This document shows positions 16,488 to 48,331 of a stretch of DNA of 64,000 nt, one piece after another. Below the pieces are notes generated by a model, which saw nothing but the letters and a program-made list of their open reading frames with translations, ran no database searches and was not told the origin of the DNA. The position numbers and the translations under genes are program-made. Location of the stretch: positions 310,001-374,000 of the forward strand of contig NC_083373.1 in the NCBI RefSeq assembly GCF_029542785.1. The letters are read 5' to 3'. The DNA is from Malassezia japonica. Taxonomy: Eukaryota > Basidiomycota > Malasseziomycetes > Malasseziales > Malasseziaceae. How positions within the stretch are numbered: the first letter of the stretch is position 1; the number at the start of each line of letters is the position of its first letter.

Positions 16488-17101
16488 ATGGCGCAGGTTC
16501 TCGAATATGCCATGCAGGGTACGTCGCGTCGCTAATGCAGCTCGGGACCGGCTCAAAGACTTCCGCGAGACGCGTCTTTCGACCGTGCGCCCCCTGAGCG
16601 AGTTCGTCGACTACCACCGCATCAGTCGCCCGCGGGATACCAACGAGGCCGTGCAACGTATCACGTACAACACGCGTCACTTTTCGGGCAATTATGCGGT
16701 GCTCATCGGTGTACTGGCCGTGTACGGAATGTAGGTGTTCGCGCTAACGCAGCATCATGGACCCCATCCTGATTCTCGCTGTCGGCGTGTTGGTCGGTGG
16801 ATTTGCGGCGATCAACCGCTTCGGTATGTCGTGCACCTAACGCAGCTCCGGAGCCCATGCAGGTCGGCAACCACGTCGTGACGCAAAAGAGCTTGTACGC
16901 TGCTCTGCTCGTCGTCGGTACGTGCCGCAACTCACCCAGGCCTCATCCTGCTCTGGTTCGCGAACCCCTTTGCGCTGATCTTTTGGCTGGTCGGCAGCAG
17001 TGCGTTCCTTATTCTGGGCCATGCGGCGTTCATTGAGCCGCCAGTGTCGAGCGAATACGCAGGCGTCGAGGTACGTCGCTTTTCTCACCCAGACGGTCTA
17101 A
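16488..17101 (+). CDS. YIP3: PRA1/Yip3 family prenylated Rab acceptor, six exons
   Basis: Five introns of exactly 22 nt (16519-16540, 16731-16752, 16824-16845, 16918-16939, 17071-17092) join exons of 31, 190, 71, 72, 131 and 9 nt into a 167-aa protein. The segment around LKDFRETRLSTVRPLSEFVD, followed by paired hydrophobic hairpins (near YAVLIGVLAVYG and LYAALLVVGLILLWF), is typical of PRA1 proteins. These are small ER/Golgi membrane proteins that bind prenylated Rab GTPases and help load them on membranes. Without splicing the frame breaks at once, and all five junctions keep phase, so the exon structure is well supported. The last coding exon is only three codons. Retaining the last intron would lengthen the frame into the start of the telomerase gene. 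Confidence 0.88.
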
Positions 17102-17149
17102 GCGCGAGAATGGCACGTGGGCCGTGCATTCAGCGCACCATCGACCTGG

Positions 17150-20100
17150 ATGGCATCCGCCCGGCCGACGGGAGCCGAGGCCACCGTCTACAGGCATGTC
17201 CTGCCACAGTACTACCATAGAGTTGCGACACTCGAGGGTTATTTGAAGCAAGTCGCGCCGGACGCGCTCGGCGCGCCGGGGCCGAGCGAGGAAACGCGTC
17301 TGTTGCGTGGGATTATCGGCGGCGCGTCGTTCGAGGAGTGCGGCACGCCGCCCGAGTGGATGGCGCGCCTCGAGGAGGAGGGCGTGTCGATGGTCACGGT
17401 ATGTTTCGTGTCTCATTCAGCTTGTGCAGCATGCACAACGTGCGATTCTGACGCAGGACGGCCGGCGGCGCGCCGATCTCTTGACGTTGGGCTACCGACG
17501 CGACTCGGTCGAGGCGTGCATCTCCAATACGCACCCGAATACCGTACTTACTAGCATGCTCACGAGCCCGGCATGGCACAGGATCCTGGCGCGTATGGGG
17601 GCGCACCGTTTCTACCACATGCTGCGTACGACGTCGTACTTTGTGCCGCTCGAGAGCGACGATTGCTTTGCGCAGATGTGGGGCGAGCCGCTCACGGATT
17701 TGTCGGTCCTCGCGAAGCGCAAGGCGGCGCCCGTGCCGTGCAAGCGGCGGCGGCGGCGCAAGACGAGCCGCGTCACTGAAACGCCGACAACCCCTGCATC
17801 GTCCCTCTACTTTCGCCGCGGACGCCTATTTTATACACGAGCCATCCAGCGCTACCGGTACGGCATCGTGCTCGGCCTGCCTCCCAGTCATGTGTTGTAT
17901 ACCCAGGGTAGCTTGCGCAGGCGCACCGCGGCCCTCGCTCGCACAATGTACCCCCTGCAGTTCCAGCGAGTGCCGCTTTGGCACGCCAAGCCAAAGTCTA
18001 CGCGGCTGGGACGCTGGCCGAAACGGCTCGGCGCGCTGCGCCCTGTGCTGCGCTCCCTGCTCCGCCGGCACGACCGCTTTCACTATGCGGCGGCCCTCGA
18101 GGCATGCTGTCCATCGATGCTTCCCCGCGGCGCAAAGGTCGCCGACATGGAAGATATCCCCGAGCCTGCGCCCGCACCCGCGCCTGCGAGTACGCAGGCG
18201 TTTGCCGCGCACGACTCGGTACGTGCGCGGCGCATGCAGCAGCAGCTTGCCAAGGTGCGCAGCAAAGGCGAGCCGCGGTTTTACCAGTACGCGACCTCGC
18301 TCGGGCGTGTGTGCTGGTTTGTGCGCGTCGTCCTGCGGCGCGTCGTCCCGCTGTCGCTGTACGGCTCGGCGGAAAACCGAAATGTCGTTCTTGCTTCTGC
18401 GGCGCGGTTTGTATGCGCACGGCGGGGCGAGCGGCTGCATCTGCACGACGTGCTGCAAGGATTCCGCACATCGCACTGCGCATGGCTCGGTACGGGAAAA
18501 GGGCCGGCGTCCGAGCACAAGAAACGCACTGAGCTCGTGCACGAGACGCTGTTCTGGCTCTTTGAGCATTTCCTCCTCCCCCTTTTGCGCACGACTTTTT
18601 ACGTGACCGAGGCAGCGGCATTTCGGCAGCGCGTACTCTACTTTCGGCAGGATCTGTGGCACCGCGTCAGCGCGCCACTTGTTGCGCGGCTGCGCGACCG
18701 GCTCTTTGAGCGTGTCCCGAACGCGGCCGGCGCGCCGGTCGCGCAGGTGCGCCTCCTCCCCAAAGACACGTCCATTCGCCCGATCGTCAATTTGCGGCGG
18801 CGCACGCTCGACGGCGTGTCGGTCAACGCGCAGCTGCAGACGGCCTTTGACGTGCTTGCGCTCGAGGCTGCACGTACGCCGCGCGTCTATGGCGCGGCCG
18901 TGCACGGTGCCAACGGCATTTATACCCGCTTGCGTGCCTATAAGGCGTCGCTCGAAGCGCGTTTCGGCCATGTGCCGATGCTGTACATGGTCCGTGCGGA
19001 TATTCGCGCCGCGTTCGACTCGCTCGATCACGCGCAGCTCGTACGGCTTGTGCGGTCGCTGCTGGCAGGCCAGGGCACGTACGTTGTCCAGCGGTACATG
19101 CAGCTCAAACCTGGGCTCGGGCGTGTAGCGCGCAACGCCGTGCGCCGTGCGTGGGACGACGAAGCGTACCCCTCGTTCCTACAGACGCGTCCGTCGGCGC
19201 GGCATGCCGTGCTGGTCGACAGTGTCGCGTATGCGCTCACGGATAGCGAGCAGGTCCTGCGGCAGGTCGAGGCGCACGTCACACGGAGCCTCGTGCGGTT
19301 TGGCTCGGAGCTGTACCGGCAGAAAACGGGCGTGCCCCAAGGCTCGGTGCTCTCGACGATCTTGTGCAATCTTTTGCTAGGCGATGTCGAGCGCACGATG
19401 GAGGTCGATGGGTGCTTGATGCGGTACACGGACGACTTTCTCCTCCTTACACCGTCGCGCCGCGCCGCCGAGAAATTTTGCGTGGCGTTGCACGAAGGAT
19501 TTCCCACGCATGGCTGCTACATCGCGCCGGAAAAGACGCTGGTCAATTTCGATATGGTGTGCGGCACGACGCTCGTACCGCGCATTGCGGCTCACGACCC
19601 GGTGCCGTGGTGCGGATTTGAAATTAGCCCCACAACGCTGTGTGTGCGCGCAGACCCCCGGCGATACCCCTACCACTTTGGGGACACCCTGACGGTGCAC
19701 GCAGGTGCGCGCCCTGGCGACGCGCTCGTGCACCGAATGTTGCACGCGGTGCGTGCGCGAACGCACGTCCTCTTTACCGATACGGTGCTCAACACCGAGC
19801 ACGGCGCGTACCGGAATCTGCTCGAGGGCTTTGCCGTCGCTGCCGTCAAGCTGCACACGTACTGCCGCGCGATGCGCCCCCGGCGTGCCTCGCCGCAGCT
19901 CTTGCTCCGTGCGATTGAGCAGGCGGTGCGGATGACCTATCCCATGGTCATGTCGCGCATCGAGCTCGCCGCCGCAAGCATGCACCTCGGCGCGGAGACG
20001 TCGGTGCAGCGCATCTCTGTCGAGTGGCTCGGGTACTTTGGCTTTTACCAAGTGCTCGCGCCCCGCGCCGTGTATGCGTGGGTCTCTGCGGCGCTTGCCG

Positions 20101-20204
20101 CGCGTCTGCGCGCCTCACGGTACGGCGCGGCCCGCCGCAGTGTCGGGCGCATGGCGCTTGCACAGTGGCCATTGATCGCAGCCGAGCTCGAAGGTCGGTT
20201 CTAG
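17150..20204 (+). CDS. EST2: Telomerase reverse transcriptase (TERT)
   Basis: Exon 1 (17150-17398), a 22-nt intron (17399-17420) and exon 2 give 1010 aa. The N-terminus has the TERT-like segment VYRHVLPQYYHRVATLEGYL. The T motif FYVTE is at 476-480 and motifs 1/2 (LLPKDTSIRPIVNL) near 528. Motif A has the catalytic D610 (ADIRAAFDSLDH). Motif B' is GVPQGSVLSTILCNLLLG, motif C is RYTDDF with D754 and D755, and motif E is WCGFEI at 813. All catalytic residues are present, so the gene looks functional. A Pro/Ala-rich linker lies between the N-terminal and RNA-binding domains. The ATG is 48 nt after the PRA1 stop and in the same frame as it. The ends of TERT and the convergent Utp13 gene are 6 bp apart. 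Confidence 0.93.
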
Positions 20205-20210
20205 TTCTGT

Positions 20211-22799: not shown

Positions 22800-22940
22800 G
22801 CTGCAGAGCAATGCGTCTGTGCTCGAAAAAAGAAAAAGGTATGGCTTATGTAATACGGGTGGGACGCCGGACAGGACGCCGACGCCGACGCATACGGCGT
22901 GCGGAGAAGAGAACGAGCAATGGCTTCACTAGCTATCGAA

Positions 22941-23479
22941 CTAGACACGCTCGGGGTTGAGCTTGAGGTCCGACATGTCGACCTCGCCGCCCACAGGCAG
23001 GTTGCGGCGGGGGTACTGCTCAAAGATACTGGGTCAGCACAGCGACAACGTACGTAAGGTCCTTTAGGCGGTGGGCCTTGGGCTTCTGGGCGTCCTGCAT
23101 CAGGAGCTGCGACTCGGCCTTCTTCAGGGTCCAGTCGAGGTGCGCCTGGTTGTTCTTGACCGTCTCCTCGGTGGGCGTCGTGAGCGACTCAATGTACTTG
23201 GTCAGCGGCGCAGGCTCCTCCGAGCCGTCCTTCTTCGTCGCAGTAAGACGGTAGGCAGCCGCGCCACCGATCAGGGCAATAAGGCCGAAGCGCCAGAGCG
23301 AAGAGTTGAAACCTGGGTCAGTGAAAATACGCACCCTCCTGGGGATATTGGGCAGACTGCGCAGCAGACGAGGGGGCCTGCTCGCCGCACACCACACGCG
23401 AAGTGTGCAGAGAACGCTTAGCGCCCGCACGGAGCGTGGGGGTAGCCAAAGCACGCGCACGAAGCGCCATAGACACCAT
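22941..23479 (-). CDS. Small mitochondrial inner-membrane protein, probably a fungal complex I accessory subunit (17.8-kDa type)
   Basis: Three exons (23479-23335, 23312-23054, 23028-22941) with introns of 22 nt and 25 nt encode 163 aa. The start MVSMALRARALA, rich in Arg and Ala and continuing to KRSLHTSRVV, is a typical mitochondrial presequence. A single hydrophobic helix (FGLIALIGGAAAYRL) follows. Then comes a soluble tail with TPTEETVKNNQAHLDWTLKK and the end FEQYPRRNLPVGGEVDMSDL. The tail resembles my memory of the Neurospora 17.8-kDa NADH dehydrogenase subunit, but this identification is moderate. A perfect TCACGTGA lies 48 bp upstream, as for other OXPHOS genes in the window. Splicing is required to keep the conserved C-terminus. 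Confidence 0.65.
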
Positions 23480-23526
23480 GGTTGGTCAGCAATGAAGGCC
23501 GCGGCCGGCCGACGACCGCCCCGTCA

Positions 23527-23919: not shown

Positions 23920-24213
23920 TACCCTACGCGCATGTACACACGCGTGATGCGCTTGGCGCAATTGTAGGTTAAAGAGGCTGCGACGGGTGCACAAGCGACG
24001 CACGCGCGTCCACGCCACGTACACCCCGCGACGACGCATCTCGTGCCGCACGACACGGCGTTTGCCCGCTCGAACATTATGTACCCAATTTGTACTCTAC
24101 GCTGTAGCTTTTTGCCATACCCAAGCCCCGCTCGAAAGAGCATGCTACCACGTCCCCACTTCGCACAGCCGAACGCGACGCGGTGCACTATTTTGCCCAC
24201 GTGGCGATGGCCC

Positions 24214-25336
24214 ATGCGGCGTGCGGCGACGATGCCGGAGCGGCCTACGGCCTGGGACGCGGCGGCCGCGGCGCTTCGCGCTTGTGGCTCGCTTACCGAG
24301 ATTATGGTGCACACACTACTTGTTCTTGCGATAGTCATGCCGGCCTATGTCGCGCTTGTGCGGATACGTGCCGACTACGTTCCGAAGTCCGACGACGAGC
24401 CGGTCGAGCCGGTGCCCTGGACGCCCGAGAATGCGCCGTACCGCGTCTATGGCTGGTTCGTTGATCTTCTCCCTGCCTTTGGTGGGGTGATAGTCATGAT
24501 CCGGCGGACAAAAGAGGCGGAAGGATGGCGCGGCCTCTATCGTGGCACGACGCTCGCCTTTGTCCAAATTGTCGTGCAGTCCGTTGTCTCGTTCCTGCTG
24601 CTGTCCGACAGCAGTGGCAGAGAAGAGCAGCCCGGCACGGTATCCGTGCGCCTGCTGCTTGCGCTGGTCGGCGTCGCGCTGGTCGACCTGCCGTTCGAGG
24701 TCCTTTTGCAGCGGTATGTCGTGCGACTCACGCAGAACGGCCGTGCGCCCCAAACGCCTCGCGTGGCTGCTGCCCAAGACGAGTCTGCAAAAGGTGCTGA
24801 CGCCCGCCGAGTACAAGGAGCCGTGGCGGCTCTACCTGCTGCCTGGCCTGCTGCCTGCGATGCTCCTGCGCAAGCTCAGTGCGACGCTCCTGCTCGTCGC
24901 ATTCCAGTGGATCATTAGGCCCCTTTCGCCCTCGACGCTGCACCAAGGCGCCGTGGAAGGCAGCCACGGCCCGAACACCAACCGTGTGTCGTTCAGTTTC
25001 GGGAGCCTGGTCTTTTATCTGGCGTGGAACGTGCTATGTCTCTGCATTACCCTCCCCCTCGACTGCATGATTGTGCGCCTCGCTACGCAGACCACGCAGG
25101 AGACCGAACGTGTCCAGGAACCGCACAGCAACGCACCCGATGCGCTGAGTGCGCCGCCGCCGCAACACATCATCACCCTGCGCTCGACCGCGCCCGACAC
25201 ACCCGCGCCCTACCGCGGGCTTGTCGACTGCTACCGCAAGATGGCCGCCGAGGAAGGCACCGCGAGCCTCGTGCGCGGCGCCTCGCTCGCCTTCCTCACG
25301 CTGCTCGTGATGCACACCGGCGCTGCCCGTTCATAG
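24214..25336 (+). CDS. Mitochondrial-carrier-like membrane protein, paralog 2
   Basis: Exons 24214-24713 and 24736-25336, joined over a 22-nt intron, give 366 aa. Motifs in order: EGWRGLYRG at the end of repeat 1, LPFEVLLQR at repeat 2, EPWRLYLLPGLLPAMLLRK, LPLDCMIVRLATQ at repeat 3 (canonical PX[DE] form) and EEGTASLVRGAS at the end. The intron splits an Arg codon after its second base, exactly as in paralog 3. ATGs at 24142 and 24232 are alternatives; 24214 gives a first exon of 500 nt, the same as paralog 3. It is tandem with paralog 3. The substrate is unknown, and the first repeat is degenerate. Confidence 0.72.
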
Positions 25337-25385
25337 CACGTGGCTCCACGTGGCTTATCCGTGCGCACGTACCTCTTCCCACGAT

Positions 25386-26832
25386 ATGTCGAGTGAGGCG
25401 GTGGTGATCGTCGTGGCTGTCGTGGCGTCTTTCGCGGCAGGCGCGATTGCTCTGCTAGTCATGATGCCATTCTTTGTCTCCCTTACGCGTCTGCGGGCCA
25501 ACTATCTGCCCAAGGCCGTGTCGCTGAACAATGTGCTGAACGACGGGGAAGAAGAGGCGATGGAGCGCCGTTCCTTCTTCCACTCGGTGACGATGCGCAC
25601 GCGCCGTGCGACGGCCAAGATCGGCCCGGTGGTCGACGGTGTGATCCCAATGATCCGCCGGACCAAGCGGCTCGAGGGCTGGCGCGGGCTCTACCAGGGC
25701 ACGACTATTGTCGCGACGGGGGCGTCTGTGGCGTACGTCTTTGGCTTTATCTTTTCCTACATTATGTTTTCCAAGACGATCACGAGCGATGGTGACGTGG
25801 ATACCAATATGCCCATTTTTTGGGTGCTCGCGATGGAGGTCATCGAGGCATTTATTGTCCTGCCATTCGATGTCGTCCTGAAGCGGTACGTACATTTGCT
25901 AATGCAGAACCATGGTCCATCCTCGCCGCCTCAACTGGTTCGCGCCGCGCGAGAGCCTGCAAGAGGTGCTGTCCGCGTCAGAATACAAGCAGCCGTGGCG
26001 CCTGTACAGGCTGCCGGGCCTGCTCCCCGTGATGCTGCTCCGCGTCGCGCTTGTCTCGTCGATCTACGCGGTGACGAACGACATGCTCCTGCCTTCGATG
26101 GGGCTCGTGCCGATCGAGCCTGCCGACCCGAACCAGGACGAGTACGAGGGGCCGTCGTCGGTGTCGATCAAGCGTGCCGTTTTCGCCTTTGCCGCGTACC
26201 TCATTATTCTGCTCGCCGTGCAGCTGATTGCCGTGCCGCTCGAGTGCATGGTCGTCCGCCTCTCGACGCAGCGCCCGGTGACGCAGCAGCCGCTGCACGT
26301 CGCGTATGCGGACAACGCTCCGGCACAGGGGCCGGCGTCGCACAACCACCAGGCGACCGTCCCCGAGACGGTCGCCCCGAGCGAGGCGCCGGCGGATGCC
26401 GAGGATGCCCAAGACGCTCAAGACGCGGACGTCGAGGCCGCGCCGAAACCCGCAAATGCGCCGAGTGCGTCGGTCGACGACGACGCCGAGCTCGCGGACG
26501 ACGACGCCGAGCTCGCGGACGACGACGATCTCCCGATGCTGAGCGCGCCCGCGCCCCGCCGCAGTACGCTGCCGCCGCGCACCAAGTCGCCGACGAGCGA
26601 GCCGGTGATTGCCCTGCGTCCGTGCGACGAGGCGCTCGACGAGATCGACTCGTACTACGGTGCGGCGCCAGTCGAGCGCTACCTGACGCTCGGCGACTGC
26701 TTCCGCAAGATGGTCGCCGAGGAGGGCTACGAGAGTCTGTTCCGCGGCCTGCCCTTCTCGATGGGCCTCATGTTCCTCGGCGCGCTGGGCATGGTCCCTG
26801 CGCTGATCGATGTACTTTCGCTCTTTTCATGA
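25386..26832 (+). CDS. Mitochondrial-carrier-like membrane protein, paralog 3
   Basis: Exons 25386-25885 and 25908-26832 around a 22-nt intron give 474 aa. Motifs: a hydrophobic N-terminus with MPFFVSLTRLRANYLPK, TKRLEGWRGLYQGTT, LPFDVVLKR, then after splicing TMVHPRRLNW, PWRLYRLPGLLPVMLLR, VPLECMVVRLSTQ and EEGYESLFRGL. Relative to paralogs 1 and 2 it has a long acidic insert before the last repeat, including a direct 21-nt tandem duplication at 26476-26517 that encodes the repeated DDDAELA unit. Only 49 bp separate it from paralog 2, in the same direction, which suggests tandem duplication. Its stop overlaps the convergent SR140-like gene by 6 nt. Confidence 0.72.
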
Positions 26833-28247
26833 TAGACTGTCTTGCGCGAGCAGCTCGCGCAGCTCCTGTATCATAGAAGGGGGGTAAACAAGCCACGTAT
26901 CCCAGCAGTCGAGCACCGCGAGAAACTGGCGCTGGACCGCCTCGGCCTTGATGCGGCCGGCATACGCGTGCACCACCGCGGACAGGTGCGAAAAGACGCG
27001 GTAGAGATGGGGAAGGAATGCATCGCGGAAGCGCCACGCATTCGGCACAGACGCCGCGCTGTTGTGCAGGATGTCGGAAACGACATACAGGCGCGCGACT
27101 TTGCGGGGTATCGGCGTCGAGGGGACGAGCAGCGAGTCGACCAGCACCGCCGCCACCGCCTCGGCGGCGTGGGCGTTGGCGAGCGCAAGGGCCATGCACC
27201 GCGCGATGCGCTCGCGGCGGGGCGTGAGTGAGCGCAGCATCGAAAAGAGGCGGCGGCGCGCCAGGGGACCGAGCGTCGCTTGGCGCGTGCGCCGCGACGC
27301 CTCCGTCTCTTGGGCCTCTTCCGAGTCGGTCGAGTAGAGCGACGCGTATCCCTGCGTGAGAAGAGCGACGTACCTCGTCGTGGAACTCGGCGCTGTCTTC
27401 AAAGTGCGGCCGCGCACTCCGGGGACGCACCGGCGTCGGCGACGTCGGCGCACGGCGCACCTCGGCACGCTGGGGGTATAACGGCTCCAAAGGGAGCGTC
27501 ACGGGCTTGCTCCACGCTACACGGAGCGGCGCCGCGTCCCACACAAGGCCGTCGGCGCCGGCGAGCGCGGACTCGGCCTCGGCGCGCGTCATGTACGCGA
27601 CAAACCCCGTCGGGCCTCGGCGTGCGTCGCGGGGGGGGAGGACCTTGGTCGTACCGACGTCGCCCCAGCGCGCAAAGTAGCGCCCTAGAGCCGCCTCGGT
27701 CACGCTCTCAGAAAGGCCCTGGACGCACAGATTCGTCGAATCGGTGTACAGAGGACCAGGGCGCTCGGCACGCGCCGCTTGGTCGCTGGGTGAGCCGCGC
27801 GACGTACCGCTGGATCTCGCTCAAGAGGTCGGTCAAGGCGCCTTTTCTCGCCGCCTTGGGGGGCGGGTCGGGCGTCGGCACACGCGCCGGCGCGCGCTTC
27901 GCAGGCACCTGTGCCTCGGAGCGGGTTGCCCGCGCCGGCACGTACGCCTCGCCGCCCTTTTTTACAAACTGCTGTGTGCCGAGCACGCCCTTCTTCTTGT
28001 CGCCCGTCTCGAGGTCGTGGAGGAGCTCTTTGTACGCCTCGCGGCTCTCTTCCTCGTCGCGTTTCCTACGCGCCTCGTTGGCCTCACGCTGCACGTCGAA
28101 GCGTGTTTTCGGGACCGGCCCGCTCTTGAGCCGCTCCAAGCGCTCGATACGGTCCTCTTCGCATGTATTCTGTGACGCTAGAAACTTTTGCACGTCTTCG
28201 TCCTGGAACGCGCCCTGGAGCGGCCGACCAGGCGGCCGATCCGCCAT
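26827..28247 (-). CDS. SR140/U2SURP-like U2 snRNP-associated factor (RRM plus CID)
   Basis: Three exons (28247-27808, 27785-27374, 27351-26827) with two 22-nt introns give 458 aa. The N-terminal part is charged, with Asp/Glu/Arg/Lys-rich helices (RREANEARRKRDEEESREAY-like). An RRM begins near residue 164 (TNLCVQGLSESVTEAALGRY) and carries TKVLPPRD and TGFVAYMT. The C-terminal third is a CID-like helical domain, with RRERIARCMALALANAHAAE and IPRKVARLYVVSDILHNSA closely resembling SR140. The protein acts with the U2 snRNP in branch-site recognition. It is less than half the length of the human protein, and I saw no SURP motif. The splice junctions restore the RRM frame, which confirms both introns. 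Confidence 0.8.
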
Positions 28248-29617: not shown

Positions 29618-30396
29618 ATGGCTGAGCGTGGACGTGGTGGATTTGGACGTGACCGCGGTCGTGGCCGCGGCCGCCGTGGACCTCGGAAGGACGAGAAGGA
29701 AGAGTGGGGTACGTTTTGATTCGCATTAACCCAGTGCCCGTCACCTCGCTCGGTCGCCTCGTCAAGGACGGCAAGATCAAGTCGATGGAGGAGATCTACC
29801 TCTTCTCGCTCCCCATCAAGGAGTACCAGGTTGTGGACCTTCTGCTCCCCAAGCTCACTGACGAGGTGATGAAGATCACCCCCGTCCAGAAGCAGACCCG
29901 TGCCGGTCAGCGCACCCGCTTCAAGGCCTTTGTTGCCATCGGTGACTCGGACGGCCACCTCGGTCTCGGTGTCAAGTGCGCCAAGGAGGTTGCTACCGCC
30001 ATCCGCGGTGCCATTGTCATGGCCAAGCTGTCGGTCATCCCCGTCCGCCGCGGCTACTGGGGCTCTGCCCTCGGTAAGCCCCACACCGTCCCCTCGAAGG
30101 TCTCGGGCAAGACTGCCTCGGTTATGTGCCGTCTTGTCCCCGCCCCTCGCGGTACCGGTATCGTCGCCTCGCCCGCGCCCAAGCGCCTGCTCCAGCTCGC
30201 TGGTATCGAGGACGTCTACACGCAGTCCAAGGGTCAGACCGCGACCATGGGTAACTTCCTGAAGGCCACCTTTGCGGCCGTGTCGAAGACCTACGCGGTG
30301 CTCACCCCCAACCTGTGGCCCGAGAACCCGGTTCCGGCCACCCCATACGTGGAGCATGCCACGCACCTTTCTCGCGCCGGCAAGAAGCTGCGCTAA
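29618..30396 (+). CDS. RPS2: 40S ribosomal protein uS5 (S2)
   Basis: Exon 1 (29618-29708) encodes the Arg/Gly-rich start [18 protein letters not shown] and continues [13 protein letters not shown] 26-nt intron (29709-29734) precedes exon 2, giving 250 aa. The S5 domain is clear: [84 protein letters not shown] and [16 protein letters not shown]. It lies near the ribosomal decoding region and mRNA entry site. A possible 5' UTR intron of 31 nt (29583-29613; GTACGA start, CTAAC then TTAG end) lies just before the ATG. The start codon is only 5 nt after that putative acceptor. Confidence 0.95.
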
Positions 30397-30577: not shown

Positions 30578-30953
30578 ATGATTGCCCGTGCCTTTTCGCA
30601 GACGACCCCTGCCGCCCGCGCGATGCGCGTGGCTGGCCAGCAGGTGCGCCACTCGTCGGGTCTTCCCATCCCCCCGAAGATCGCGACCCCGAAGAGCGTC
30701 GGCGGCTCCGGCGCGTCGAACACCGACGCTGTCGTGAGCTTCTACAAGGCCCTCCCCAAGGGCCCTGAGCCCGAGAAGCGCTCGATGGGCATCAAGGCGA
30801 ACTACTTCGATGGCAAGAACGCCAGCGGCAAGCCCCTGGTCGCCACCATCGCCGTGCTCATGCTCATCGGCTACACGATCGAGTACAACGGCCACCTCAG
30901 TATGTTGACTGTCTATGCTGACCACAGAGCACCACAAGAACGCGCACCACTAG
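30578..30953 (+). CDS. ATP17: Mitochondrial ATP synthase subunit f
   Basis: Exon 1 (30578-30899), a 28-nt intron (30900-30927) and a 26-nt exon 2 encode 115 aa. The N-terminus (MIARAFSQTTPAARAMRVAG, then RHSSG) is a mitochondrial presequence. Subunit f features are VVSFYKALPKGP, the conserved NYFDGKNASGKPL, one membrane helix (VATIAVLMLIGYTIEY) and the end NGHLKHHKNAHH, whose last residues depend on splicing. It belongs to the membrane Fo sector. The intron is the longest I found in a coding region. A stop is reached soon after if the intron is retained, or the C-terminus is altered. Confidence 0.9.
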
Positions 30954-32777: not shown

Positions 32778-34410
32778 CTACTGTACATTAGAGGTCGAAA
32801 AATAGGCATCGAGCGTGCGTGGGCGCTTGGCCGGCTTCGTCGGCGACGCCTCGCGCGACGGCGTGCGCTCCGGCGCGAGGCCGAGGCAGTGGTCAATGTG
32901 CCGGTTGACGATGGCGCTGGTCTGTACGTCTGGCGTGCCGCTCGGGACGTGGATCGCCTTGGCGCACACCGGGCACGTGTGTACGATGCCTTCTTGGAGC
33001 CACTGCTGGAGCTGCGACGACTCGGCGCGCAGGTCGACGAGCGCTGTGCCGCGGATGCCGAGCAGGCGCAGCGCGAGGCGTCCGCCCGCCGCCGCCCTCT
33101 CCTGCGCGAGGAGCGCATGGCCGATGGCGTACAGCTCGTCGGCAGTCGCGATGCCGTGCGGCGCCGCGCTCTGGCCGCGCGAGAAGCGCTCAAACGTGTC
33201 GCGCTTGCCGATCAGCGTCACGGTGCGCACGCGGAAGCCGAGCTCGACGAGGTCCTCGGCGAGCTGCTCGCAGGCGTGCCGCAGCTTGGCGTCGAGCGCC
33301 TTGGCGTCTGCCGTGGGTGCAAACGTATTTTCGCGCCCGATCGACTTGCGCTCCTCGCGCGCCTGGGGCTGCACCCTGCTCGAGCTGATGCCCATCGCTG
33401 CCGAGAGCAGGAAGGAAAAATTGTCCATGCACACGCTGAGCATCACGCGCTCCTCCCATAGCGCGCCGCACGTCTGGATGCCGAACGCGTCGAGGATGCG
33501 CTCGGTGACGTGTCCAATGCCCGGGACCTTGCGCACCGGCAGCGACGCCATAAAGTCCATGATGCCCTGGCGCTCGAACGGCACGGCAAACTGCCCGTTG
33601 GGTTTGCGGCGGTCCGAGGCGATTTTCGCGAGGAGCATGTTGGCCGCGATGCCGACCGACACGGTGAGCTGCGTCGTACTCCTGACGTCCTCGCGCAGCT
33701 GCGTCGCGACGTCTTCGGCGCTGAGCTGGTGCGCTTCGCAGTACGGCGTAACGTCGAGGTACGCCTCGTCCAGGCTGCGCTGCACCATGCTGCCGTCGTA
33801 TTTTCTCAAGACGCCCATAATCACCTCGGAGCTCTCCTGGTATCGGTCAAAGTGCGCCGGAACGACCTTCAGCTCGGGGCACACGGCGCGCGCCACAAAC
33901 TCGGCCATGCCCGAGCGGACGCCGCGGCGGCGCGCCTCGTAGCTCGCGGTGAGCAGCACGCCTTTGCTTACAGCAAAGCACGTCCCTTGCAGCGATGGAT
34001 CGCGCTGCAGCTCGACTGCCGCGTAGAACATGTCCATGTCGCAGTGCAGGATGCGGCGGGTGAGGCTGCGCTGCGCTTCGAGCGACGCGGCGAGCTGGTC
34101 GACGCGCGCCGCGGCGTGCTTGTGCGCCGCCTCAGAGATCGTCCCGAGCGCCTCGTCCCGCCGCGCACGCACGCGCTCAATCTTGGCTGTGACCGCGTCG
34201 TGCTTCGCGCGCTGGTTCGCGTAAAACTTGGAGCCTTTCGACGCCTCGTGGATCAGCTGGCTGATGCGCGCGTCGTCGCTCGCGACGGCCGCTTTGTGGC
34301 TGGATGCTGCGTCAGTTGGTGCACGTACGCCCAGCCATGCGCTTGTAAAAGCTCGCCAGGTCCTCGTCCTCCCACGCCTCCTCGTCCCCCCGCTGCGACC
34401 GTTCCGCCAT
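32778..34410 (-). CDS. POLK: DNA polymerase kappa (Y-family translesion polymerase)
   Basis: Exon 1 (34410-34329; MAERSQRGDEEAWEDEDL, then ASFYKRMAG) is joined over a 22-nt intron (34328-34307) to exon 2, giving 536 aa. An N-clasp helix region (GSKFYANQRAKHDAVTAKIE) precedes the palm, with D117 in CDMDMFYAAVE and D207/E208 in RSLDEAYLD. SVGIAANMLLAKIASDRRKP and a little-finger domain follow. A zinc finger of the UBZ4 form uses C472, C475, H497 and C501. The last residues, TLDAYF, resemble a PCNA-binding motif. The enzyme bypasses minor-groove lesions in DNA. The protein is shorter than the human enzyme and has one zinc finger instead of two. Only 34 bp separate its ATG from that of Atg4. Confidence 0.92.
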
Positions 34411-36963: not shown

Positions 36964-38286
36964 CTACTGCTGCTTGCATTCCTGCGGGTCCTGGCCACGC
37001 GCACCACCGCGCGGTGCGTCGTCCTCGTCGTCGTCCTCGTCATCATCGAAGTCCTCGTCGCCGTACTCGTCGTCGTCCCACTCCTCCGGGTTCTCGTAGT
37101 GGAGGGCCTTGCCGGTGAAGAAGTCGACGGCGTGCGGGATGATGCGGTCCTTGAGATCCTCGCCGATCTGGTAGTCGAGCTCGAGGCGCTCCTCGAGCGC
37201 ATCGAGCTCCTCCTCGTCCTCCTCCTCCTCGTCCGTCGGGGGCTTGGGCGGCGAGAAGAAGTTGAAGAAGGACTCGGTCGGGACTAACCGCTTGACGGTA
37301 CGCGTCTCGTTCGTGTTCTTGTTGCGCTGCTTCTTGGTCTCGACACGGTGCATGAGGTTCGCCTCGGGCGACTTCCAGTCGATCGTCGTGCCCTCCGCGT
37401 GGTCGTACACGAGATCGCCAGAGAAGCCGACCTGGTCGGAGTAGAAGTAGGTCTTGGTCAGGACCTCGTTCGAGAAGTTCTCATTCTTGGCCGCATCAAA
37501 GACAAAGTCCAGCTGGAAGCCCTGCAGCGACTGCTCGGGCGCCGCGTTCGCGGGCACATCGAGGTAGCGCAGCCGGATGTCGGTGAGGTGGCGCAGCGCC
37601 TCCTCGTCGCGCTCGGTGATCACCTCCGACAGCGCCACGTGGTTCTTGAGCGCGGTGAGCCAAAATTCGGGGATGCCCTTTGGCGCGTCGGTCTTGATCG
37701 AGATGTTGGCGAGGGAGCGGGGCGTCTCCTTCTCGTCGTCCTCCTCATCATCGTCCTCGTCCTCGTCCTCGTCCTCGTCGTCCTCACGGTCGACCGTCTC
37801 GCCCGACTCGACCTCAGCGGCGGTCGGCTCGACCTTGCCGAGGATGATCTCCTTGCGGCGGTCGTACAGCGGAGCATAGCGCTGCGCAAACTTCTTCTCG
37901 AGCGCAAGGATCTCGCGCTGGAACTCGGCCTCGATCTTTTGATGGTCGATGTTGAGGCCCTTGAGGCCCTCGACGCGGCGGCGCACCTCGTCGGGGAGCG
38001 ACTCGATGTAGCCCGACGAGCGGCCGACAAGGCCGTTGAGCTTGTCCTGGATCATGCTCTGGATCGCGGCATTAGGGAGGCCCGCGGCAGCAGCATCCTC
38101 GTCGTCATCGTCGTCATCGTCGTCCTCCTCGCCAATGGTCGTCACCGTGGGGCGCGACAGCGGCTCGCGCTGGATCGGAGCATTGCTCAGAGGCGTGTTC
38201 TGCGGCGTGGGCGCCGTCAGGTCCGTGTTCTTGTTTCTGTGTGAGTCAAACCCCACGTACTTTCCAATTTCCACCGTGTTTGCCAT
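36964..38286 (-). CDS. NAP1: Nucleosome assembly protein 1 (NAP1)
   Basis: The continuous frame gives 440 aa. An intron-like 24-nt segment (38237-38260; GTACGT start, CTCAC then ACAG end) lies nine codons after the ATG, and its removal would leave 432 aa with the frame intact. NAP family features are VEGLKGLNIDHQKIEAEFQR with the long dimerisation helix, YAPLYDRRKEII, GIPEFWLTALKNH, LVYDHAEGTTIDWK, TESFFNFFSPP and an acidic C-terminus. The histone chaperone moves H2A-H2B between cytoplasm and chromatin. Very long Asp/Glu runs are present at two places. The coordinates cover the unspliced reading. It is convergent with Atg4 (20 bp apart). Confidence 0.93.
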   Translation of the reverse strand: MANTVEIGKYVGFDSHRNKNTDLTAPTPQNTPLSNAPIQREPLSRPTVTTIGEEDDDDDDDDEDAAAAGLPNAAIQSMIQDKLNGLVGRSSGYIESLPDEVRRRVEGLKGLNIDHQKIEAEFQREILALEKKFAQRYAPLYDRRKEIILGKVEPTAAEVESGETVDREDDEDEDEDEDDDEEDDEKETPRSLANISIKTDAPKGIPEFWLTALKNHVALSEVITERDEEALRHLTDIRLRYLDVPANAAPEQSLQGFQLDFVFDAAKNENFSNEVLTKTYFYSDQVGFSGDLVYDHAEGTTIDWKSPEANLMHRVETKKQRNKNTNETRTVKRLVPTESFFNFFSPPKPPTDEEEEDEEELDALEERLELDYQIGEDLKDRIIPHAVDFFTGKALHYENPEEWDDDEYGDEDFDDDEDDDEDDAPRGGARGQDPQECKQQ

Positions 38287-41621: not shown

Positions 41622-42077
41622 GGTTTGTGGAGTGCGAAATCGCGCATTTCGACTAATCGGGCTTTTTTTTCGCTGACACATCTTCTCCGTCTCACACCAC
41701 CGCGACGAGTACGTGTCGGGGAATTTCGAGTAGAGGATGGATCATCAATACAATCTTATCCACATTATCCGAGCCTACGGGCATACGAAGAACAACCTGC
41801 TCTGATTCCCCCTTTTACGAACAGGCTAACCTTAGTTGACACGAATGTATCCTAAATAGAAAGTAGCGCTACGTCCCACGATACCAGGTTCCGAGCACAT
41901 ACACGCGCGCCCGCACGTACAAATACCTCCCTTGCAACACAGTCGCGCCCAGGCGGCGTGCTCCTCGACGCTCTCGCCGCCGCGTAGCGTAGGCAGCCGG
42001 GCAGCGTCACGTGACAGAAAAGAGCCAATGCAACCGAGCCCGTTCGTAAGCAGCCGAGCGACCTCTCCTCTGTCGAC
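41622..42077. other. Intergenic region between Rrp40 and NDUFS4
   Basis: These 456 bp lie between divergent starts. The stretch 41730-41870 is noticeably AT-richer than its surroundings and carries two GGATAA words on the minus strand (41756 and 41765 areas). A T8 run lies near 41665-41672, close to the Rrp40 start. The TCACGTGA octamer is at 42007-42014. I cannot recognise a tRNA, snoRNA or repeat. Confidence 0.5.
42007..42014. promoter_or_regulatory. TCACGTGA octamer upstream of NDUFS4
   Basis: A perfect TCACGTGA lies 64 bp before the NDUFS4 ATG at 42078, similar to the distance seen for ATP17 (68 bp) and the complex I-like gene (48 bp). Confidence 0.5.
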
Positions 42078-42685
42078 ATGCAGTTCACGAGTGCGATTGT
42101 GCGCCGTAATGTCGCGGCGGTGCGGCCATCCATGGCCCGCACGCTCACCGCCTCGGCCCGTGTGATGAAGAGCAACCCCAACTACGAGGCGGGTGTCCCG
42201 ATCCCGACCGGCGACTCTGCCTCGGGACAGCGTGATCTGGTCGGCGAGCAGGTCAACCGTATCGGCGAGCCTGCGCCGATGTCGCTTGTCAGTGACGCTC
42301 CGAGTACGTACAAAGCGCACTAACATAGACTCGCTCCACCAGCGCATGGTGCGTGTGTTCCAGCCGGCCAAGTCCGCCACGACTTCCGGCAAGGCGGGCA
42401 CGCGTGACTGGCGCGTGGACTTTGACGTTCTCCAGGGCTCCGGCCGCTGGGAGAGCCCTCTGATGGGCTGGGCTAGCACGTACGTGATATGGCTAACGTA
42501 GTGCGGACTCGCAGCAGGCGCTCAGCATGAAGTTCGACACGAAGGAGGACGCGATCCACTTCTGCCAGAAGCAGGGCTGGGACTACCTTGTCCAGGAGCC
42601 CCACAAGGCGCGCATTCCGCCCAAGACTTACGCGGACAACTACAAATACGTCCCGGGCAAGCTCCGTATCCACCACACCAAGTAG
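42078..42685 (+). CDS. Complex I subunit NDUFS4 (18-21 kDa, NUYM type)
   Basis: Exons 42078-42303, 42329-42479 and 42502-42685 with introns of 25 and 22 nt encode 186 aa. The N-terminus (MQFTSAIVRRNVAAVRPSMA, then RTLTASARV) is a mitochondrial presequence. The family body is RMVRVFQPAKSATTSGKAGT, then RDWRVDFDVLQGSGRWESPL, MGWAS, KFDTKEDAIHFCQKQGWDY and the conserved end KTYADNYKYVPGKLRIHHTK. The subunit belongs to the peripheral arm of NADH dehydrogenase, near the N module. The second intron lies just inside the conserved MGWAST segment, and splicing restores it. Confidence 0.93.
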
Positions 42686-42871
42686 ATGCGATATATGTGT
42701 GATGTGCACGAGATGAAAGACGCGGTTTTCGTGCTCGTCTGCGCCTCGGCGGCGCTGTACGACGACGCTACATACATAGACCCTGGTGACGAGGATGCGA
42801 CGGGGACGCTGCAAGGACGATCGAGCTCATCGAGCGGCGCTTCTGCCAGTGGAGGTGTGCCTCTCTGCACG

Positions 42872-43779
42872 ATGGTCCAGTATGGCCAACTTGTCGTACG
42901 TCGCGCGTCTGACGCAGATCGGCCCCCCCGGCTCGGGAAAGACGACATACTGGTACGTTTCCATGTTAACGCAGCCATGGAATGTACCAAGTACGCCGCC
43001 GACCTAACGCAGTTTCTCACGGCCGTTGAGCGCCCCGTGCAGATCGTGAATCTGGACCCTGCGAACGACACGGTCCCCTACCCCTGTGCGGTTTCGCTCT
43101 CTGAGCTCATCTCTGTGCGCGACGTGATGGCTGAGCTGGATCTCGGCCCCAACGTACGTTTCTTTCCTGACGCAGGGCGCCATGCTGTACTGTATGGAAT
43201 ACCTCGAACACAACCTCGACTGGCTCGAGAGCCGGCTTGCGGTGCTGGACAGCGACTATGTCATCTTTGATCTCCCCGGCCAAGTCGAGCTCTCTACGAA
43301 CCACCCCAGTCTAAAGCGTATCCTGGAGCGGCTGCAGAAGCAGCAAGACTGGCGGGTACGTCTAGGCACTAATGCAGCTCGTCGCCGTGCACCTTGCAGA
43401 TGCAAGCAACATTTCCGACCCTGCGCGCTATGTCTCCCTTCTGATTCTCGCGCTGCGTGCGATGCTCATGCTCGAGCTCCCCCACGTAAATGTGCTGAGC
43501 AAGATGGATTTGCTGGACGACGAGCAGCGCGACGCGCTCCTTTTTTCGCTCGACTACTATACAGAGGTGCAGGACCTGTCCTATCTAAGCGACCACCTCG
43601 CCGAGTCCCAGCCGCGCCTCGCGGCGATGAGCCGTGTACTGTGCGAGGTGGTAGAAGACTTTGGCCTGGTCTCCTTCGAGACGCTCGCCGTGGAGGACAA
43701 GGCTTCCATGCTGCACCTTGTCCAAGTATTAGACCGTGCGATTGGCTACGTAGCTGCCGGGGGCGCCCACAGTGCATAA
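42872..43779 (+). CDS. GPN2: GPN-loop GTPase 2, six exons with a 16-nt micro-exon
   Basis: Five introns of exactly 22 nt (42896-42917, 42953-42974, 42991-43012, 43154-43175, 43356-43377) separate exons of 24, 35, 16, 141, 180 and 402 nt, giving 265 aa. The P-loop GPPGSGKTTYCHG is assembled from exons 2 and 3. The defining GPN motif is the last three codons of exon 4, and GAMLYCMEYLEHNL begins exon 5. DYVIFDLPGQVELST (G3), VAVHLADASN and NVLSKMDLL (G4) are all present. GPN GTPases help assemble and import RNA polymerase II. The start MVQYGQLV fits short GPN2 N-termini. The only frame that joins all these motifs is the spliced one. Confidence 0.92.
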
Positions 43780-43846
43780 TTATGCATCGGCATGCAGATA
43801 GGAAAAGGTGACCAAGGCGTGGGGGAGAGGAGCGCCTCTTCCCTTG

Positions 43847-44776: not shown

Positions 44777-44787
44777 TATAGTCTATG

Positions 44788-47700
44788 TTACCGTTCTTGA
44801 CCATGTGGCGACGGCGGGGGACGCGGCGGCGTCCCCAGCGTCTGCGGCACATTGTGCGCGAGGTTCAGGGGGTGCTGCTGCAGCCCCTGCGGCGTGTTCT
44901 GCGCCATGGGGACGTACCGCGGCACGCCCGCCTGGAACGGCGCCTGGCCGTCGGGCGCCGGGGGCCGCTGCTGCTGCTGCGCCTGCTTGTACAGCTGCAC
45001 CGCGAGCGAGTTGATCTGCTCCTGGCTCAGGTGCGACGCGGCGAGCGTGATGGCCAGCTGCTGCTGCAGCGCGTGCAGATTTGGCGGCGCACCCGGGGTA
45101 TTCGGCAGCCCCGGGCTCGCGCTCTGGCGCACTGCGACGGGCGGCGTCGGGGCCTGCCCGCCGAGCGAGTTGAGCGGGAGGCCGTTGTACGTCTGCCCCT
45201 GGTTCTCCATCCCGTAGTTCATCGGGCGGACGTGCGGCGCGCCGGGGTTGCGCGCGCGCAGCGCCGCCTGCTGCTGCGCCGGGCTCGAGGCGGCAATGAC
45301 GATCGGCTGGCGCTGCGCCTGCGCGGCCGGCGTGCCGCTCGGCGCGACGGGCGACGGCTTCTTGTCCATCGCAAAGTGCTGCTGGAGCTGCGCCTGTGTC
45401 GCGCCGGGCGAGCGCACCGCGAGCACCGGCGACGAGGTCTGGTACGACTGCTGGTTGTGGGGATCCAGGCCAAAGTAGGGCTGCGTCGCGTTGCGCACAA
45501 ACGGCACCTGGTTGTTTTGCGCGAGGAGCATCGCGGGCTTGTTCTGGTTCGGCACCGTGGCCATGTACGGCGCGTTCGGCGGACGCGGCGTGCTCTGGCT
45601 CGGCTGGCTCGGCGTGGGGGCGGGCGCCTCCTGCTTGCCCGGCGACGGGGGTTGGTCCGGCGTGCCGGTCTGCGCCTGGGCCTGGGCCTGGGCCATCTGC
45701 AGGCGCTGCTGCTGCTGCTGCTGGTAGGCGAGCTGAGCAGCGCGCTGCTGCTCAAAGAACTGGCGGATGGCCGCCTGGTCGCGCTCCGCCTTGAGCATGC
45801 TCAGCGCCTGCGGAGTCGGCGTCGAGATCGACTTGACCTGCGTATGCGTGTCGTGCGTGCTCAGATTCACGCGCCGCGCCGCGCCGGAGCTCGCGGCGGC
45901 AGCCGACTGGCGCTGCGCCTGCTCGCGCCGCCTGGCGCACTTGCGCATCACCTCGAGCAGGTGGCTCCGGTGCTGCTTCTTGCGCGCGCCTTCGGGCTTC
46001 GGCGCCGGGCGCTTGCCGCGCAGCGCGTCGTCGGTGCTGGACACGTCCGCTTCGGCCTGCAGCCACTTGCAGCGGTCGTAGCAGTCCCACGGCGTGCGCC
46101 GCTCGGTCGCGAGCGTGAGGCGCGCCGAGTTGAACAGGTCGGCAATCAGCGGCCAGTTGTCCTGGTACTGCTTGGCGAGCGCCGCGAGGAACACGTCGTC
46201 CTCGCTCGTCCACGAGAGCTGCGCGGCACGCGCCTCGGGGGCGGCGGGCGGGGTGGGCACCACGGCCGTATGCAGCGCATAGTCGCGGCTCACCTTGCCG
46301 GCGCGGCGCGCAAAGAGCAGCGAGCCGGGCTGCGCCGCCCACGGCTGCGCGTCGGGCGCGTCGGGCGCACTGTGCTCGTCGAGGTCGCGCCACTCGCCGT
46401 GCACACGCTTCGTCGCGGGGTTCAGCGTGCTCACCAGCGCGGGACGCGCATCGAGGAGGCGTGTGACGTGCGCAATACGGGCGGGGTGCGTCGTCGAGCC
46501 CTCTTCGCGGCGCTTCTCGCCATGCTTGGAGTCGTCGTGGGGGACGAGGGGACCGTACTGCGGAAGCTCGGGGAAGAGCTTCGCCAGGTCCAGCTGTTCG
46601 GGCTCGAGCATGTTGAGTGCCTCGAGCGCCGTCCTCTCGTCGACCTGCAGGAGCGCAGCAGCAGCGGCAGGGTCGAGGTTGTGCAGCAGCGACCACGGCG
46701 AGACGCTCGTCGCAGTGGCGTCCAGACCAAAGATCGGCGCACGGATCGCGGTGACGAGCGCCAGGGGGAGCTTGTCGCTGAGCGTCGCGTCTTTGTCGGC
46801 ACCGGCACGCATCGGTGCGTCGGTGGCGTCGGTGGCGTCGGTGGGGGGCGCATCCAGCGAAACCGTTGGGCCGGGGCCGGCACGCTTGTCGTGGGGGACA
46901 TCGTCCTCGCCCTCGGCATCCTTGTCGCTCTCCTCGGCATCGGCGTGCGTGGGCTCGGCGGCAGGCGAGCCGTCGGCGTCCACGTCGGTGTGCTCGTCGG
47001 CCTTGGCATCCGCGGCGGGCTTGGGCTTGTGGGGGCTCGTGTCGACGTCCATCGCCTCGGGCTCCGCCTCGCCGTCCGCTTCAGTCTCGGCTTCAGGCTC
47101 GTCCTTGGCCTCGGGCTCGACGCTCGCCTCGGGTTCGACGCTCGCCTCGGGCTCGACCTCTGCCTCCTTGGCCTCCTCTGCCTCGCCCTCCTCGCCCTCC
47201 ATCTCCTTCTCGGACAGACGCACGTACCGCACACACAGCGCCGCACGCTCTTCCGGCGTCTTGGCCTTGTGCCACCGTACTGCCTGGTGTGCGAGCTCGT
47301 AGGCTACTGCGAGCTTCCACTTGCGCTCCTCGCGGAAATCAGTCTGGAGCCAGCGCATCTCGTCGAGCAGATAGTCGCGGTGCGTCTTGCGCTCGACCGG
47401 CCCCTTGATGCGCTTCGGCTGCCGGAAACTCCAGTGCCCCTGGCTCTTGAGCTGGTCGATGCGCGCCATGGCCTTGACAAACTTTTGCTCGGTAAACGCG
47501 ACTTTCCAGTCGCGAGTCAAGAGGCACTTGCTCGCCTTGCGCACAAGACCCGCACTTGGACTCGCGCGCGCGCGCACGCTCCATTTCCAGAGGTCGGTGT
47601 GCGCCTGTCCCCCCTTTCCTTTGCCGCTGGGGAGGCGCGCGCCCGCCTTGCGTGCGCTGCGCTGGTGCACCGAGCCGCCGCTCTGGCCGATGGTCATTAC

Positions 47701-48331
47701 GCGGCGGCTGGGGTCCGTCTGCAACGGGCGCAGCGACGACGCATACGTCACCGACAGTGGATTCGGTGCGAGCTCCTGGAGCGTCAGCGGCGGCGGCGTG
47801 CCCGACGACGGCTGCTCCTGCTCCGGCGGGGCGACGAGGAGCGTCGGCGACGGCGGCAGGCGCAGTGCGGTGTGTGCGCTGCGCCGCGCACCGTCGATGC
47901 GCCGCGGGTCGACTACCGGGGCCGGGGCTGGTGCCGCGGCCGGGGCCGGCGTCTTTTCCTTTGTGCCCGGCTCGCGCAGCCAGTGCTGGGCGCGCTCCGT
48001 GAGTGTGTTGACGGCGTTTTCGACGCGAGTCTGGAAAGCCGGCGCGCTCTCCGACTCGAGGGTGTACTTGGCCATGGAATCATCCGTGTCATCCATGAGC
48101 GCCTCGGGCAGCGAGCCTGCGTCGTCTGCCTTGGTCTCGGCAGTGCTGAGCATCGCATAGAGGCGCTGGATATCGCTGCGTCGCGATGCCGTGAGGTTGC
48201 TGGGTCAGTCGGGCTACGTACGCAATCTCTGTGTGGCATTCTGCAATGCGTCCGCTGCGCAGCTCTTCCAGCGTTACACGACTGCTCGAGGCCTGCGTCG
48301 CGGCGCCTGCGCCGGCCATCCTCGTCTCCAT
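44788..48331 (-). CDS. EAF1: Eaf1/Vid21, scaffold of the NuA4 histone acetyltransferase complex (HSA + SANT)
   Basis: Exon 1 (48331-48222) and exon 2 (48199-44788) around a 22-nt intron encode 1173 aa; an alternative ATG is at 48319. An HSA domain near residue 290 (HWSFRQPKRIKGPVERKTHR, then DYLLDEMRWLQTDFREERKW) binds actin-related proteins. A Glu/Ala/Pro-rich acidic region of short repeats (EPEASVEPEASVEPEAKDEP) follows. A SANT/Myb domain lies near residue 697 (SWTSEDDVFLAALAKQYQDN, then WPLIADLF). The C-terminal third is Gln/Pro/Ala-rich with poly-Gln runs. This order is that of Eaf1. Splicing extends the N-terminus by about 50 residues. The catalytic partner Esa1 is at the right edge of the window. 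Confidence 0.88.

Follow-up and report, generated by a model that had tools for sequence, protein, structure and literature searches.

We have analysed here a 64-kb stretch of the genome of the yeast Malassezia japonica (the window: bases 310001–374000 of contig C4, in a genome of 8.43 Mb and 9 contigs), whose genes appear interrupted by introns of nearly uniform length, predominantly of 22 nt. It is highly probable that these segments are ordinary GT-AG introns which, in this Malassezia yeast, have shrunk to the minimum length that its spliceosome accepts. Their GT-AG ends, the donor hexamer, the CTNAY branch motif upstream of the acceptor and the restoration of the encoded proteins upon removal all point to introns of the U2 type. 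They are packed as GTACGT-N7-CTNAY-NYAG, with the acceptor fused to the branch site and no space left for a pyrimidine tract after the branch A, and for the span from the donor to the branch A there is a hard floor, at 16 nt, where most of the introns lie. As a sequence feature this is real, strong and genome-wide, and ultra-short spliceosomal introns are a known kind; the variant found here, combining a 5-nt 3′ anchor and a hard 16-nt 5′ floor with the retention of Slu7 and Prp18 in a fungus, was absent from the literature searched.

The 22-nt intron class in the window and in the genome

A previous sequence-only reading of the window had reconstructed 24 coding introns, 19 of them of exactly 22 nt. 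All 19 were recovered, 18 by a regular expression and the last one through the reading frame of GPN2, and the total of 24 was matched as well, the additional five introns found here being of 24, 25, 25, 26 and 28 nt (the earlier reading leaves its other five unnamed). A YTNA branch motif with its A at position 17, counted within the intron, was present in 19 of the 19, as had been claimed, and the claimed donor form GTNNGT held in 18 of them, the one departure being GPN2 intron 3 (42991–43012), which begins with GTACGC. Donor starts were GTACGT in 13 introns, GTATGT in three, and GTAGGT, GTGCGT and GTACGC in one each.

Two gene finders were applied to a local test set of 264 kb, composed of the 64-kb window and 200 kb of contig C1. 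The motif-free finder relied on codon usage, start and stop codons and GT...AG ends, with a flat length prior of 15–200 nt and no branch-site prior. The motif-aware finder yielded 179 intron calls, of which 136 were kept as filtered introns (20–60 nt, with at most 8 nt from the branch A to the last G). The predicted introns of the window are the following, with gene labels and evidence.

16519..16540, plus strand: 22-nt intron, PRA1 intron 1; regular expression, motif-aware finder, gap-free junction in the alignment
16731..16752, plus strand: 22-nt intron, PRA1 intron 2 (GTAGGT); regular expression, motif-aware finder, alignment
16824..16845, plus strand: 22-nt intron, PRA1 intron 3 (GTATGT); regular expression, motif-aware finder, alignment
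16918..16939, plus strand: 22-nt intron, PRA1 intron 4; regular expression, motif-free finder, alignment
17071..17092, plus strand: 22-nt intron, PRA1 intron 5; regular expression, frame, alignment (the motif-aware finder gave a longer false intron)
17399..17420, plus strand: 22-nt intron, gene labelled TERT in the sequence-only reading (model 17150–20204); regular expression, motif-free finder, frame continuity only
23029..23053, minus strand: 25-nt intron, gene labelled complex I-like in that reading; motif-aware finder
23313..23334, minus strand: 22-nt intron (GTGCGT), same complex I-like-labelled gene; regular expression, motif-aware finder, frame continuity only
24714..24735, plus strand: 22-nt intron (GTATGT), first gene labelled carrier in that reading; regular expression, motif-free finder, frame continuity only
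25886..25907, plus strand: 22-nt intron, second carrier gene (Pfam Mito_carr); regular expression, motif-free finder, frame continuity
27352..27373, minus strand: 22-nt intron, SR140-like gene, with RRM and CID domains flanking the junction (Pfam); regular expression, motif-free finder
27786..27807, minus strand: 22-nt intron, SR140-like gene; regular expression, motif-free finder, Pfam
29709..29734, plus strand: 26-nt intron, A at 21, 5 nt from A to last G; motif-aware finder
30900..30927, plus strand: 28-nt intron, A at 22, 6 nt from A to last G; motif-free and motif-aware finders
34307..34328, minus strand: 22-nt intron, DNA polymerase kappa gene, near the N terminus; regular expression, motif-aware finder, protein identity by alignment
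38237..38260, minus strand: 24-nt intron, A at 19, 5 nt from A to last G; motif-aware finder
42304..42328, plus strand: 25-nt intron, NDUFS4 gene; motif-aware finder, gap-free junction in the alignment
42480..42501, plus strand: 22-nt intron, NDUFS4 gene; regular expression, motif-free finder, gap-free junction
42896..42917, plus strand: 22-nt intron, GPN2 intron 1; regular expression, reading frame, homologues
42953..42974, plus strand: 22-nt intron, GPN2 intron 2 (branch TTAAC), 3′ of a 35-nt exon with the P-loop; regular expression, frame, homologues
42991..43012, plus strand: 22-nt intron, GPN2 intron 3 (GTACGC), 3′ of a 16-nt exon; reading frame, homologues
43154..43175, plus strand: 22-nt intron, GPN2 intron 4; regular expression, motif-free finder, homologues
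43356..43377, plus strand: 22-nt intron, GPN2 intron 5; regular expression, motif-free finder, homologues
48200..48221, minus strand: 22-nt intron, gene labelled Eaf1 in that reading; regular expression, motif-aware finder, frame continuity only

Within the window, GTNNGTN7CTNAYNYAG matched 17 times, compared with a mean of 0.05 and a maximum of 1 in 100 dinucleotide shuffles, and a looser form of the motif matched 19 times, compared with a shuffle mean of 2.45 and a maximum of 7. A peak at 22 nt, instead of a broad distribution of lengths, was also recovered by the motif-free finder, which placed 48 of its 149 intron calls in the 264 kb at 22 nt, none at 21 nt and eight at 23 nt; under a stricter penalty, 38 of 108 calls were of 22 nt. 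When GT-AG was replaced by TG-GA, GA-TG, AG-GT, CT-AC or GT-GA, 2–9 calls fell at 22 nt, with total calls remaining similar (89–157). These similar totals indicate that many of the calls of other lengths, the long ones above all, are probably false and that the 22-nt peak is the specific part. At the middle penalty, 41 of the 43 motif-free 22-nt calls carried CTNA with the A at position 17, a motif that had not been given to the program.

Strict 22-mers, allowing all GT[AG]NGT donors, numbered 103 in the 264 kb. None of them lay inside coding sequence predicted on the opposite strand (0/103, compared with 40% of random 22-nt places); 43 were called exactly, 22 lay within longer called introns, 23 in coding sequence of the same strand without a call, nine outside genes and six across gene edges. 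At the scale of the genome, the 22-nt pattern GTACGTN8TNANNYAG gave 2208 matches against seven for the reversed pattern, which served as control for the genome-wide counts. The arrangement GTACGT...CTNAYNYAG spaced for 15–21 nt showed no genome-wide excess (7 against 6 in the control). In the 264 kb, two GTACGT patterns at 22 nt, the one used for the 2208 matches and the slightly stricter one used for 15–21 nt, matched 78 and 75 times; by the proportion of 103 strict 22-mers to 78, we estimate that the genome may hold about 2900 such 22-nt introns. That 22 is not a multiple of 3, as had been pointed out, extended to the class as a whole, with 131 of the 136 filtered short introns not divisible by three.

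Among the filtered introns, GTACGT formed the donor in 99 of 136; position +4 of the donor was C in 108 and A in two, and +5 was G in 172 of the 179 motif-aware calls. The branch motifs were mainly CTGAC (41), CTCAC (33), CTAAC (19), CTTAC (17) and CTAAT (12), and intron phases were evenly represented (35/32/31). Between the fixed motifs of the 22-nt introns, position 8 was seldom A (four of 98), whereas pyrimidines prevailed at position 9 (82) and purines at position 13 (79).

The earlier claim that all junctions keep the frame and restore known motifs was confirmed by homologues at 11 of the 19 junctions of 22 nt, and frame continuity is the evidence at the other eight. Counting one of the five introns of other lengths, 12 junctions were thus confirmed, in PRA1, GPN2 and NDUFS4. 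Removal of the five 22-nt segments of PRA1 leaves a protein of 167 amino acids that aligned gap-free at all junctions with 10 of 11 relatives, the closest being those of M. brasiliensis (86%) and M. furfur (85%), a similarity on which the yeast was assigned to Malassezia (Basidiomycota, Ustilaginomycotina). NDUFS4 aligned through one 22-nt and one 25-nt junction. Without its five segments, GPN2 regains the P-loop GPPGSGKTT, and its junctions were gap-free both against the solved GPN3 (with small gaps a few residues off) and against P0121–P0123, three relatives free of insertions or missing exons there.

Some public protein entries appear to depart from these gene structures. In the eleventh PRA1 relative, the public entry of M. 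yamatoensis (P0015), 19 residues are missing from the position of intron 3 onward (16824–16917), and the gap reads as if the annotation program had taken a longer intron. Among eight aligned GPN2 proteins of Malassezia or Malassezia-like species (P0121–P0127 and P0130), four have no P-loop segment, which is encoded here by tiny exons at 42872–43012; these are the entries of M. pachydermatis, M. equina, M. yamatoensis and one relative. Two others carry insertions: P0130 has VRSPCAFPFLTQ at the position of intron 5, which fits a 36-nt GTACGT...CTNACNCAG translated in frame, and P0124 has WYDATHSPS at the position of intron 2, which fits a retained intron of 24 nt. Both insertions would be translated introns and, as they stand at intron positions of the window GPN2, some positions look shared in the genus with varying lengths. 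From the entries lacking the P-loop or bearing insertions, we infer that the gene catalogues of the genus probably hold more errors of this type.

As regards the remaining features of the window, the motif-aware finder made 27 calls, namely 15 of the 19 introns exactly, five other short introns and seven long or loosely spaced ones that were discounted; the motif-free finder called nine of the 19 exactly. The junction of DNA polymerase kappa lies approximately at the edge of the aligned part and was not counted among those confirmed, and the protein of the complex I-like-labelled gene had no match in Pfam or PDB. The last coding exon of PRA1, directly 3′ of intron 5, comprises 9 nt including the stop codon (17071–17101). 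At 24079–26832, two plus-strand genes lie side by side and are possibly a tandem pair; each has one 22-nt intron, in phase 2, and the second encodes a mitochondrial carrier domain. A single unbroken plus-strand reading frame of about 11.5 kb (3281–14812) was called without introns.

Spacing of donor, branch A and acceptor

Among the 136 filtered introns, 98 were of 22 nt, 15 of 23 nt and two of 21 nt. The distance from the branch A to the last G was 5 nt in 115, as the sequence-only reading had proposed, and 6, 4, 7 and 8 nt in 15, three, two and one, respectively. The branch A occupied position 17 in 105 introns, position 18 in 10 and later positions in 21, and in none did it stand earlier; the 31 introns with the A at 18–41 have unchanged branch and acceptor motifs. 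A motif table of the 264 kb, made without a gene finder, counted 2, 103 and 7 matches with the A at 17 and 4, 5 and 6 nt to the last G, against 0, 1 and 0 in the control, and three matches in all with the A at 12–16 against five in the control. Both 21-nt introns keep the A at 17 with 4 nt to the last G, that is, they are shortened on the 3′ side (n = 2).

The idea of a fixed ruler between the U1 and U2 small nuclear ribonucleoproteins (snRNPs), raised by the earlier reading, stood in part. The spacing of the branch A to the 3′ splice site is ruler-like, whereas the donor-to-A span has a hard minimum and no hard maximum (31/136 with the A at 18 or later). Because the A is found earlier than 17 in no filtered intron and later in 31, and the 21-nt introns keep it at 17, the limit looks one-sided, unlike that of a two-sided ruler. 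The arrangement thus looks like an anchored 3′ side and a 5′ side with a floor at 16 nt. The distance from branch to AG is nearly constant, with no pyrimidine tract between them, as in the anchored site of Yarrowia. A limit on the total length in place of one on the donor-to-A span was also considered and is disfavoured, the A being at 17 in both 21-nt introns, a small number.

With this geometry, splicing would proceed by intron definition on one compact unit, and the first AG after the branch would be used with no scanning. The floor itself may correspond to the closest approach of the donor-bound and branch-bound snRNPs, against which genome streamlining would stack the introns. Retention of such an intron would usually be caught as a frameshift, because 22 cannot be divided by 3.

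A different reading of the same numbers is that the spliceosome measures the distance from donor to branch on both sides, working best at exactly 16 nt, so that longer introns would be poorly spliced or specially controlled. The A lies exactly at 17 in 105 of 136 introns (77%), with a tenfold fall to position 18 (105 to 10), and nucleomorph introns of 21–27 nt are described as less well spliced than those of 18–20 nt (PMC5014332). We nevertheless regard a two-sided measurement as rather unlikely, as the 31 introns with the A at 18–41 bear the same motifs and include introns of conserved genes, for example that of NDUFS4, of 25 nt and with a gap-free junction.

Origin of the segments and splicing machinery

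The uniform length could also reflect common origin, if copies of a single 22-nt unit had recently been gained in large numbers in the manner of introners, which we consider very improbable. Comparison of positions 7–13 over 4753 pairs against column shuffles gave some excess of similar pairs, with six pairs identical at 7/7 positions against 1.2, 37 against 20.5 at 6/7 and 190 against 138.9 at 5/7. However, this surplus is small, and there are also more dissimilar pairs than in the shuffles (0/7: 406 against 335.7), a pattern that unequal base composition would produce; positions 7–13 are near column-independent, and the introns are not sequence-similar copies. The even phases (35/32/31) argue in the same direction, as do the 24- and 36-nt translated introns that GPN2 of P0124 and P0130 seem to carry at two of the five positions. 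That the segments are eliminated from DNA like the internal eliminated sequences of ciliates, where eliminated DNA can be short, uniform and frame-breaking inserts, or represent errors of assembly or sites of translational bypass has hardly any probability, given that GT...CTNAY...YAG occurs in gene sense only (0/103 antisense against 40% expected), that donor, branch and acceptor motifs, U6 small nuclear RNA and splicing factors are all present, and that elimination of DNA in this manner is not known in fungi.

The view of ordinary introns at their minimum size was confronted with the splicing components encoded in the genome. U6 is present with an intact ACAGAGA box. In profile searches of the genome, Slu7 matched with 307.9 bits and Prp18 in two stretches (69.6 and 37.6 bits) that together cover positions 51–142 of 143, the match beginning and ending at motif-perfect introns of 22 and 23 nt. 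Around the matched exons, the Prp18 gene (L049:1353-1669) contains three motif-perfect introns, with lengths of 34, 22 and 23 nt. With the sought factors Slu7, Prp18, U2AF65-like and U6 present and U1 as the exception, compaction appears to have occurred without the loss of the second-step factors reported as undetected in Stentor. Loss of second-step factors, after the Stentor pattern, was accordingly rejected as the cause of the short branch-to-AG distance, the matches of Slu7 and Prp18 being the opposite of its expectation. Loss of METTL16 as the cause of the scarce A at donor +4 (2/136) was not supported either, as a Methyltransf_10 (METTL16-family) gene is present with 142 bits; its locus shows one TGA within the matched stretch and one motif-perfect 22-nt intron outside that stretch.

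Several observations weigh against this view and have to be set beside the evidence for it. Every intron junction is a prediction made from sequence. The fall in branch positions after 17 is steeper than a simple pile-up at a wall predicts and could denote an optimum more than a floor. The motif-aware finder missed four of the 19 introns (17071, 42896, 42953 and 42991), all of them adjoining very short exons and supported by reading frame and homologues. Of its 179 calls, 43 were excluded as long, very short or loosely spaced, and in seven of these 43 the best branch motif lies before position 17; these seven we regard as spurious calls or as cases of a wrongly chosen branch motif. One TAA occurs in the second Prp18 stretch, and the U2AF large-subunit-like (U2AF65-like) gene scored 224 bits, below the full-length cut-off of 310 of the model. 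Finally, no match to the Rfam model of U1 was found in the assembly, even at an E value of 10.

The pattern searches for U1 agreed with the latter result. Its canonical 5′ end ATACTTACCTG had no match in the assembly, and of the 17 matches to ATACNTACCTG and 13 to ATACTTACC inspected, Rfam scored none as U1. Among the 17, six look like donors of intron-like stretches in antisense, and among the 13, several look like the 3′ ends of introns; one match to the U1 loop pattern falls in apparent coding sequence. A U1 with a changed base matching the C at donor +4 was also considered and may yet be encoded, although none of the Rfam and 5′-end pattern matches was scored as U1. Parker et al. likewise did not find U1 in Cryptococcus neoformans (PMC10581693), so the failure in M. 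japonica may be a limit of the models.

The span itself poses a problem of distance. For human splicing, a minimum of about 50 nt from donor to branch has been described in extracts, and the two intron helices of the human B complex are separated by about 15 nm, a distance that requires an estimated minimum of 52 nt from donor to branch (PMC6692369). The 16 nt found here are about one third of the ~50-nt human minimum and cannot bridge ~15 nm; the two sites would then not be held so far apart simultaneously, or the complex would be more compact. We therefore put forward, tentatively and with some reserve, that a largely conventional spliceosome acting on thousands of introns with a 16-nt donor-to-A wall needs a different assembly geometry. 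The donor might be handed over to U6 only after the branch helix moves, the donor–U6 helix might be shortened, or assembly might take place across the tiny exons. If such a geometry were true, the wall at position 17 would directly report how tightly that complex can be packed.

Relation to known ultra-short introns and meaning for Malassezia

The introns of M. japonica are among the shortest in print, as the sequence-only reading had supposed, although they are not the shortest, given the 15–16 nt of Stentor, the mostly 18–20 nt of nucleomorphs and the 15–100 nt of Paramecium bursaria. The tiny introns of Stentor coeruleus resemble those described here in their near-uniform length and fixed branch A (10th position in 90.9%), but differ in size, 15–16 nt against 22 nt, in a weak branch consensus against the strong CTNAY, and in Slu7 and Prp18, which are listed as undetected there (PMC9505925) and are matched here. 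Neither a length of 15–16 nt nor undetectable Slu7 and Prp18 was found in this yeast. The chlorarachniophyte nucleomorph is a relict endosymbiont nucleus, unlike the free-living fungus studied here. Its mini-introns are also length-constrained, mostly 18–20 nt, with those of 21–27 nt less well spliced (PMC5014332). Paramecium, a ciliate, has ultra-short introns of about 24–25 nt in which lengths divisible by three are disfavoured (PMC5014332, PMC12862383), as here, with a broader spread (in P. bursaria 15–100 nt, median 24; PMC12862383).

Among fungi, Yarrowia lipolytica keeps its branch motif at a fixed 2 nt from the terminal AG and lacks a 3′ pyrimidine tract (PMC2483917), and the same 2-nt spacing is present in CTNAY-NY-AG. 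In contrast, its introns are rather long and the species is intron-poor (PMC2483917), whereas M. japonica combines these compact ends with many introns, the 2208 GTACGT-type 22-mers in 8.43 Mb (7 in the control) being far from an intron-poor genome. Encephalitozoon cuniculi shares introns among nature's shortest and strict donor and branch motifs, but its introns total 37 and its spliceosome is strongly reduced (PMC3629993), compared with thousands of introns and the presence of the sought factors, except for U1, in the yeast analysed here.

As for the genus, Malassezia has been stated in print to have 'very short introns' (PMC7426719), with a median of 30 and a mean of 37.2 nt in M. restricta (PMC9241646) and an average of 76–79 nt in M. 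globosa (PMC4634964). The excerpted parts of these three papers state neither a 22-nt class nor a fixed branch position for Malassezia, and the literature searched, limited to open-licence papers so that an earlier description is possible, contained no Malassezia 22-nt intron class. No DNA of relatives turned up in viral contigs.

The minimum distance between donor and branch is an old question, and 16 nt is the commonest value in this yeast, which has kept two second-step factors. Since the genus has published transformation tools (PMC5654937), the lower size limit of an intron is testable by reporter introns. On the practical side, the gene catalogues of Malassezia probably contain errors in their gene models arising from such introns. 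Structures of such a spliceosome would reveal how the distance problem is solved, and this skin yeast offers an accessible fungus for asking how small an intron a normal splicing machinery can handle.

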